DNA of 64,000 nt from assembly GCF_002078605.1 (NCBI RefSeq), contig NZ_MSJR01000008.1, positions 1 to 64,000 on the forward strand. The letters run 5' to 3'. The position numbers and the translations under genes are program-made. Source of the stretch: Salegentibacter sediminis. GTDB lineage: Bacteria; Bacteroidota; Bacteroidia; Flavobacteriales; Flavobacteriaceae. Position 1 is the first letter of the stretch, and each line of letters opens with the position of its first letter. The notes beneath the pieces were generated by a model. The model saw nothing but the letters and a program-made list of their open reading frames with translations, made no database searches and had not been told where the DNA came from. Positions 25,549 to 27,239 of this stretch are shown piece after piece.

Positions 25549-26160
25549 ATGGACTTACATCGGCTTGAAATTGAACTAAAAAAAAGATTAATTTACCCAT
25601 ACCGTTGGGGGCGAAAGCAATCTGATTCCTGGGATAGAGAAACGAATTTTATCTACGTCACCAATAGTTTTCAGGAACTGTTGAAAAAAACCAGGAGTCT
25701 TGATGCGAACATCCGTGATTATGCATTAAATCGCTGGTATAATTACTGGTCTGCTATGGGAGCCGAATATATTTTTTCTACTCACCCTCAAGTCAGTCCC
25801 AATAAAAATATCTATGACAAATTAGTAGATTTTACAATTGAGGATATTCCTTTTGATCATAAAACCACAGTTTTTCCTGGAGGATTTCCTCATTCAGTAC
25901 ATTATGCCTTGGAGCACAAGCAAGAATTGATTGAATGGTTATATCTTAACCAAAGTCAGCAAGGAAGAAAACACCTCAAAAACAGGTTATTCATAGTTCT
26001 ACATGATCCCTCCGGAAGACATTGGAAGTTGAAATCGGAAATACAATTGATTAAAGCTGCTATAGATTTCTACCTCAAAAATTTTTCCTCTAAAAACCTC
26101 CTTGAAATAGTGATTGATAAAAATGAGATTCAGGCAGACATAATCTGGATACTGAAATGA
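25549..26160 (+). CDS. Probable type II restriction endonuclease, PD-(D/E)XK-like
   Basis: A 203-residue protein that I do not match to a named enzyme. Its placement directly upstream of a DNA adenine methylase and its motif suggest a restriction endonuclease. A possible catalytic set is Glu73 (GAEYIF), Asp94 (KLVDFTIED) and Asp103-His-Lys105 (PFDHKTT), the order and spacing of a PD-(D/E)XK core, followed by 'VFPGGFPHS'. A later 'NRLFIVLHDPSGRHWKLKSE' segment could be a core strand with a basic DNA-contact loop. The protein is cytosolic and basic-rich. The 77-base gap to the methylase holds a promoter box, so the methylase can be expressed alone. The function is inferred from context, not shown. 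Confidence 0.55.
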   Translation: MDLHRLEIELKKRLIYPYRWGRKQSDSWDRETNFIYVTNSFQELLKKTRSLDANIRDYALNRWYNYWSAMGAEYIFSTHPQVSPNKNIYDKLVDFTIEDIPFDHKTTVFPGGFPHSVHYALEHKQELIEWLYLNQSQQGRKHLKNRLFIVLHDPSGRHWKLKSEIQLIKAAIDFYLKNFSSKNLLEIVIDKNEIQADIIWILK

Positions 26161-26211
26161 ATAAACCAAAAGAATATAAAATCTAAACAACTCTAAGTGG
26201 TGGGTATTGTT

Positions 26212-26219
26212 TAATTTTG
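26212..26219 (+). promoter_or_regulatory. Bacteroidota -7 box for the DNA methylase
   Basis: TAATTTTG followed by C matches TAnnTTTG and lies 18 bases upstream of the ATG at 26238. It overlaps the alternative TTG at 26217. Confidence 0.6.
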
Positions 26220-26237
26220 CAAAAACCAAATTTTCTG

Positions 26238-27239
26238 ATGAATTATATAGGTTCCAAAAACAAATTGAATCCGTTCATAAAGGACAACGTAGAATCTATT
26301 GTAGGTGAGGACTTATCCGATAAAATTTTCTGTGATCTTTTTGCCGGAACTGGTATTGTGGGCCGTAATTTCAAGACTAAGGTTAAAAAAGTTATAAGCA
26401 ATGATTTAGAATACTATAGTTATGTTCTAAATAAAAATTATATTGAAAACCATAAGCCAATCGAAGCTGGTAAAGAGCTTATAAAAGAACTGCAGGAAGC
26501 CCCAGCTTTCTCTGGATTCATTTATAAAAATTATAGTAAAGCCGGCCAGGGAGCAAGACAGTATTTTAGTGATGAAAATGCGCGGAAAATAGATGGAATT
26601 CGCATAAGCATAGAAACCTGGAAGGACAAAGGCAAAATTGATAAGAGTAGTTATTATTTTCTTTTAGCCAGTCTTCTGGAGAGTGCCGATAAGGTCGCCA
26701 ATACGGCATCGGTATATGGTGCCTACTTAAAAAACCTCAAAAAATCGGCACAAAAACCTTTAAGCCTGGAAGGTGCCTATTTTGAATTTAATGGGAACTC
26801 CCACGAGGTATATAATACTGATAGCAATAAATTAATTAAGGAAATAAAAGGAGATATTTTATATTTAGATCCGCCCTATAATGCCAGACAGTACGGAGCA
26901 AATTATCATTTATTAAATACTATTGCTATATATGATGAATTCATTCCTAAAGGTAAAACGGGTTTAAGAACCTATAACAAATCTGAATATTGTAGTAGAA
27001 ATTATGCCCTCCAGGCATTCGAAAATTTAATTGAAAATGCCGACTTCCAATATATTTTTCTAAGTTATAATAATGAAGGATTAATGTCTTTAGAACAGAT
27101 TGAAAAGTCAATGTCTAAATATGGTTCTTATCAATTAGCTTCTACAGATTATCAACGTTTTAAGGCAGACAAAACCGAAAACAGAATTCATAAAGCTAAT
27201 AAAACCACGGAGTATCTGCATATATTGGAAAAGAAATAG
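26238..27239 (+). CDS. D12-class N6-adenine DNA methyltransferase
   Basis: A SAM-dependent DNA adenine methylase of 333 residues. It starts with the classic motif X 'NYIGSKNKL' at residue 2, which fixes the ATG at 26238. Motif I is 'CDLFAGTG' (32-39) and catalytic motif IV is DPPYN (211-215). The stretch of about 130 residues between them is the likely target-recognition region. This is the order of the alpha class. Together with the upstream protein it forms a candidate type II restriction-modification pair. The target sequence cannot be read from sequence alone. The final codon is TAG at 27237-27239. Confidence 0.9.
   Translation: MNYIGSKNKLNPFIKDNVESIVGEDLSDKIFCDLFAGTGIVGRNFKTKVKKVISNDLEYYSYVLNKNYIENHKPIEAGKELIKELQEAPAFSGFIYKNYSKAGQGARQYFSDENARKIDGIRISIETWKDKGKIDKSSYYFLLASLLESADKVANTASVYGAYLKNLKKSAQKPLSLEGAYFEFNGNSHEVYNTDSNKLIKEIKGDILYLDPPYNARQYGANYHLLNTIAIYDEFIPKGKTGLRTYNKSEYCSRNYALQAFENLIENADFQYIFLSYNNEGLMSLEQIEKSMSKYGSYQLASTDYQRFKADKTENRIHKANKTTEYLHILEKK

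Follow-up and report, generated by a model that had tools for sequence, protein, structure and literature searches.

Two adjacent genes, designated R and M (Table 1), quite probably constitute a compact Type II (IIP-like) restriction-modification system in which R would cut unmethylated CATG, M would protect it, and R would have displaced the endonuclease NlaIII. The pair was identified in a 64,000-nucleotide stretch of Salegentibacter sediminis DNA, referred to here as the window. The earlier note on this DNA had interpreted the genes as a Type II pair with a PD-(D/E)XK endonuclease, and the present analysis supported that interpretation. To it are added a predicted target, CATG, a tie to the NlaIII/iceA loci and a second type of methylase partner. 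A wider reading, which we hold at somewhat short of an even chance, is that an undescribed family of PD-(D/E)XK enzymes directed at CATG displaced NlaIII in existing restriction-modification loci, with intermediates kept and two interchangeable methylase types. If true, it would trace how one endonuclease replaced another while the specificity of the methylase stayed fixed. The loci would also offer a natural series in which one methylase is seen to be shared by, and to pass between, two endonucleases with no relation to each other.

Table 1. Features of the R-M pair in the window.
Feature	Position	Strand	Basis
R: 203-aa predicted PD-(D/E)XK restriction endonuclease	25549..26160	+	ORF, 68-row alignment, AlphaFold2, co-occurrence
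TAATTTTG: candidate Bacteroidota-type -7 box, 26 bases before M start	26212..26219	+	weak
M: 333-aa D12-class N6-adenine DNA methylase, kin of NlaIII/HpyI (CATG) methylases	26238..27239	+	PF02086, PADLOC, homologues

The gene pair and the start of M

A 203-residue reading frame directly before a D12 methylase, as first described, was present, and the product of the second gene matched PF02086 with an E-value of 4.9e-53. The start previously given for M, a TTG at 26217, was judged too early, as it sits inside TAATTTTG and the homologues begin MNYIGSK. The ATG at 26238, 77 bases past the stop codon of R, gives a product that begins in the same way. M had also been credited with a promoter box of its own. 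The element TAATTTTG is indeed there, but it makes a weak candidate for a Bacteroidota-type -7 box: copies of TANNTTTG in the window were no more numerous than expected (65 against 75.5), no TTG was seen by eye at the usual -33 spacing before it, and only 4 of 38 start sites, among them that of the window itself, had a box 26-28 bases upstream of M. A scan of sigma-70-type promoters gave 7, compared with 11.5 expected from shuffles.

Sequence and family of R

The residues proposed in the earlier note as a catalytic set, Glu73, Asp94 and Asp103-x-Lys105, were found at those positions and did not vary in any of the 68 aligned homologues, so that the proposed set is exactly the conserved one. The pattern, E73, D94 and D103-H-K105, is that of PD-(D/E)XK nucleases. 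Invariant in the same alignment were D29, Y58, W63, E73, D94, F102, D103, K105 and P110, followed by Y132, Q135, R140, N145, R146 and F148. The alignment comprised 68 of 81 loci, after omission of four sequences that were short or contained X and nine near-copies above 90%, and the own-genome copy of R entered it as the window sequence. A 38-row alignment, drawn from the same loci, agreed on the catalytic residues.

The statement that R belongs to no familiar family also held, in that Pfam, NCBIfam, PHROGs and PADLOC gave no match at E<=1; no Pfam family was reached at that threshold, including PF05315, the ICEA/NlaIII family. That R is missing from PADLOC and NCBIfam says little about novelty, because neither library recognises the NlaIII homologue encoded in the same genome. 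When the 68 homologues were searched against Pfam, no family was matched by more than four members and none consistently, and the best E-value, 6.1e-5, came from one member only (25 of 42 families listed). Single matches to PDB sequences, at E 0.08 for R and 0.13 for the family profile, were judged not credible. The family is not described in the available parts of PMC6191088, PMC6449724, PMC4081073, PMC1892151, PMC2816704, PMC2749054 and PMC4687069, and a description may still be in print. A family unnamed in the searched profile libraries gains a testable target, CATG, and R could be of use as a reagent if it cuts at a different position from NlaIII.

Predicted structure of R

The AlphaFold2 model of R, calculated from the 68-row alignment, had a mean pLDDT of 93.9 and a pTM of 0.89. 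A long helix (residues 53-78) holds E73 and is followed by a strand (82-84), a second strand (95-97) with D94 just ahead of it, and a third strand (100-108) carrying D103 and K105; helices at 117-133 and a strand at 146-152 complete the series. In the model this order is consistent with, though not proof of, a PD-(D/E)XK core, and the predicted structure of a Chloroflexi homologue (pLDDT 92.3) had the same order of elements. Foldseek gave no significant match for R (best E 0.10 in PDB and 0.11 in BFVD) or for the Chloroflexi homologue (best E 0.048), with an rmsd above 8 Å in each row shown for both. Recurring among the weak matches were the PD-(D/E)XK superfamily nucleases Nt.BspD6I, FokI, McrC, RecE, MGME1, Cas4 and ThaI, beside clear noise such as glycogen phosphorylases. 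The fold anticipated for R was matched only in part: the predicted order of elements and the placement of the four residues agreed with it, but no solved structure was matched significantly.

Methylase partners

Among the 397 genomes of the window's family, 28 had a match to R and 28 had a match to M at E<=1e-60. Under strong cut-offs, R at E<=1e-28 and M at E<=1e-120, which were chosen after the lists were seen, both genes were found in 25 genomes, R only in 1, M only in 1 and neither in 370 (Fisher p 2.4e-37, kinship ignored). In the single genome with R only, M was cut by the contig end. Counting weaker matches, R in G296 and G363 (distant) and M in G302 and G369 (45% identity, longer frames), changed the numbers to 25, 3, 3 and 366.

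A wider collection of 85 R loci, which includes near-copies and genomes reached twice, was surveyed for methylases within about 3.5 kb. A D12 methylase was near R at 58 loci, a full N6_N4 methylase (PF01555, HPPY motif) at 15, three of which also had D12, and neither at 15. The expectation that homologues of R would stand beside methylases was thus borne out at 70 of 85 loci, where the endonuclease gene has a DNA methylase of its own nearby, as in Type II systems, and 7 of the 8 genomes tested behind solitary loci have a methylase elsewhere: D12 in four (57-68% identity) and N6_N4 in three others (E 3e-64 or better), with neither in the last. The rest of the 15 solitary loci are G087, where M lies about 32 kb from R; L080, which carries the same isolate name as L078; L027 and L028; and three viral contigs. 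The 12 loci with N6_N4 alone came from Ignavibacteriota, MAGs labelled Bacteroidetes, Chloroflexota and one Campylobacterales locus (L036) near a contig end. R pairs with either methylase type, D12 or N6_N4.

Relation to the NlaIII and iceA loci

The same genome holds a second D12 locus (G000:C12; L088:5558-9209) with the order N6_N4, a 382-aa protein, an ICEA-family protein (209 aa, PF05315 E 1.5e-66) and D12. This D12 methylase is 71% identical to M and has the same best PADLOC model, PDLC03257, which makes M close kin of a methylase paired with an NlaIII-type endonuclease. The 382-aa protein, between N6_N4 and the NlaIII homologue, gave a weak PDDEXK_4 match under the curated cut-off. According to PMC2749054, PMC2816704 and PMC4687069, iceA1 and NlaIII share 52% identity, iceA1 acts as a functional isoschizomer of NlaIII, and the methylase hpyIM methylates CATG.

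Several R loci have layouts in common with the NlaIII/HpyI (iceA1-hpyIM) type. In Thiothrix (L044) the order is N6_N4, R, a PF05315 protein (2.7e-71) and D12, with all frames open. NlaIII-type fragments adjoin R in two genomes of the window's family: G214 (L002) has a C-terminal scrap of N6_N4, R, the first 31 residues of an NlaIII homologue and D12, whereas G386 (L026, L121) has N6_N4, a homologue of the 382-aa protein, the first 53 residues of an NlaIII homologue, R and D12. A remnant of an N6_N4 methylase was sought in the window and not found. R differs from the endonucleases of these systems in that it has no PF05315 match and carries the PD-(D/E)XK pattern; NlaIII is an HNH enzyme.

Read from these gene orders, R would have entered NlaIII-type loci and replaced NlaIII, in that presumed direction. 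In the mechanism proposed, M would methylate the adenine in CATG of the host DNA, and R, a small PD-(D/E)XK nuclease, presumably a homodimer with Mg2+, would cut CATG lacking the methyl group; incoming phage or plasmid DNA would be broken by R. With no sequence kinship to NlaIII, R would work on the same methylase background, whichever base each methylase type may mark. It may have entered loci of the N6_N4 - R - NlaIII homologue - D12 type, as in Thiothrix, with the subsequent loss of NlaIII and often of one of the two methylases.

CATG as the predicted target

Genomes that carry the pair are expected to avoid CATG if it is the site on which R and M act. Within the window's family, the median observed/expected ratio of CATG was 0.48 in 20 carriers (844 kb) and 0.76 in 20 non-carriers (660 kb), with p 1.3e-4, and CATG was the top separator of the two groups among 136 tetramers. 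Compared by genus (14 vs 20), the p value was 1.5e-4. CATG density was lower in carriers in 16 of 16 flank contexts (0.34-0.69), which suggests a four-base rather than a six-base target. The carriers were 20 of the 28 matching genomes; omitted were G041 (short contig), G296 and G363 (distant R), and G186, G202, G273, G371 and G386, which were not or not fully covered. The 39 carrier stretches comprised 19 around R and others elsewhere, plus the window, and 33 of 40 non-carrier stretches, mostly contig starts, were used after seven short ones were omitted.

CATG was also scarce in two groups with mostly N6_N4 partners, Ignavibacteria (87 seen, 192 expected) and Chloroflexi (118 seen, 249 expected), both represented by carriers only, and in which other palindromes (GGCC, CTAG) were equally low or lower. 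The ratio was 0.62 in the genome of the window and 0.46 and 0.66 in the same-genus genomes G031 and G257, which have neither R nor any D12. The depletion in the genome itself is therefore not creditable to the R-M pair, because non-carriers of the same genus are equally poor in CATG and the genome has an NlaIII-type locus of its own.

Carriers in the Campylobacterota, against the prediction, were not depleted in CATG (204 seen, 222 expected). Three genomes with neither R nor M were strongly depleted, with ratios in larger samples of 0.02 (G023), 0.44 (G028) and 0.46 (G031), which suggests other CATG systems or lineage bias. In G252 (L091, G252:C35) an M homologue (67%) occurs with no R and adjoins a 287-aa protein without a Pfam match; its sample had 1 CATG where 141 were expected, and CCGG, GCGC and GATC were also scarce. 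The 287-aa protein is possibly another endonuclease, of a third type, that works with this methylase. Methylase kinship common to two endonucleases does not prove an identical target.

Alternative explanations

The pair could be a Type II system in which R cuts a longer or degenerate site that contains or overlaps CATG and M protects a wider set of sequences. This is improbable. The target was deduced from methylase kinship and depletion alone, and carriers in the Campylobacterota were not depleted in CATG, both of which leave room for another site, but the reduction in every NCATGN context speaks against it, as does the finding that no comparable tetramer emerged from the scan, which covered tetramers (the runner-up had p 0.004 and differed the other way). 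It is very improbable that R is instead an accessory nuclease of NlaIII-type systems, such as a second subunit, and not the restriction enzyme proper. Such a role would fit Thiothrix, where R adjoins an intact NlaIII homologue, and Sulfurimonas L033, where a 219-aa ORF between R and M shares 32% identity with the NlaIII homologue across residues 92-200. Against it, 79 of 85 R loci, many of them with about 1.5 kb of flank, had no similarity to the NlaIII homologue nearby, and R accompanies both types of methylase, as expected of an endonuclease that is sufficient by itself.

There is, finally, a bare chance that the pair is decayed or inactive and M an orphan methylase. Decay is suggested elsewhere, in L031, where R is only 136 residues long from a start codon (ORF list), and in L037, where M is split over two frames, and the genome itself shows no reduction in CATG relative to same-genus genomes lacking the pair; in the window, however, R and M are both open and R retains every invariant residue.

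Comparison with other CATG systems

FatI cuts at /CATG, as given in the available part of PMC6449724. The likeness to R, compared by description only, lies in the predicted target and in a source within the Flavobacteriaceae. FatI comes from Flavobacterium aquatile and, compared by target and source only, may belong to the family of R. UpaP162 of Ureaplasma parvum, again compared by description only, is like R in its CATG target; in the accessible part of PMC6191088 its endonuclease is said by the authors to have no homology or domain, and its methylase, annotated as a cytosine methylase, is suggested to form m6A. R resembles the PD-(D/E)XK Type IIP endonucleases in the pattern of its catalytic residues and in how its structural elements are ordered, but has no significant sequence or fold match to the solved members.

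Genomic setting and distribution of R

The genes around the pair had been described as accessory and near a tRNA. A tRNA-Arg does lie about 3.4 kb from M, and the accessory character applies to R, M and the right side, but not to the left side, where the genes rpoD, rpe, ypdA, DUF488 and a 121-aa gene keep their order in two of two same-genus genomes; the names rpoD and rpe are provisional. Both of these genomes lack R and M. By eye, G257 has an oxidoreductase-like reading frame after the conserved left block, in place of the pair.

A pattern scan of a collection of species genomes, a method limited to close relatives, gave 51 R loci. The hosts of R were Bacteroidota, Campylobacterota, Ignavibacteriota, Chloroflexota, one Cloacimonadota and one Thiothrix record, and identical copies occurred in Lutibacter and Polaribacter records. 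The nearest tree relatives of R include Campylobacterota, and horizontal transfer is therefore likely. Phage records contained no R. Plasmids had a single distant copy, in Priestia (32%), and inspection of the adjoining ORFs by eye revealed no methylase-like gene. In IMG/VR, 4 of 76 candidate stretches encoded a relative of R, one of them with M.

The distant relatives at L027/L028 (G296, G363), at 28-32% identity, keep the E/D/D-x-K residues. Helicase-like ORFs (by eye), not D12 or N6_N4 methylases, adjoin them, and the two genomes gave no match to M at E<=1e-60. At L029 (G371:C43) a 368-aa distant relative (25%) directly follows a distant D12 methylase (24%), a pair that may represent the nuclease family with a different specificity. 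At L058, L061 and L066 the gap between R and M was 1.4-2.6 kb, and in L061 it is occupied by a 455-aa ORF that appeared ATPase-like by eye.
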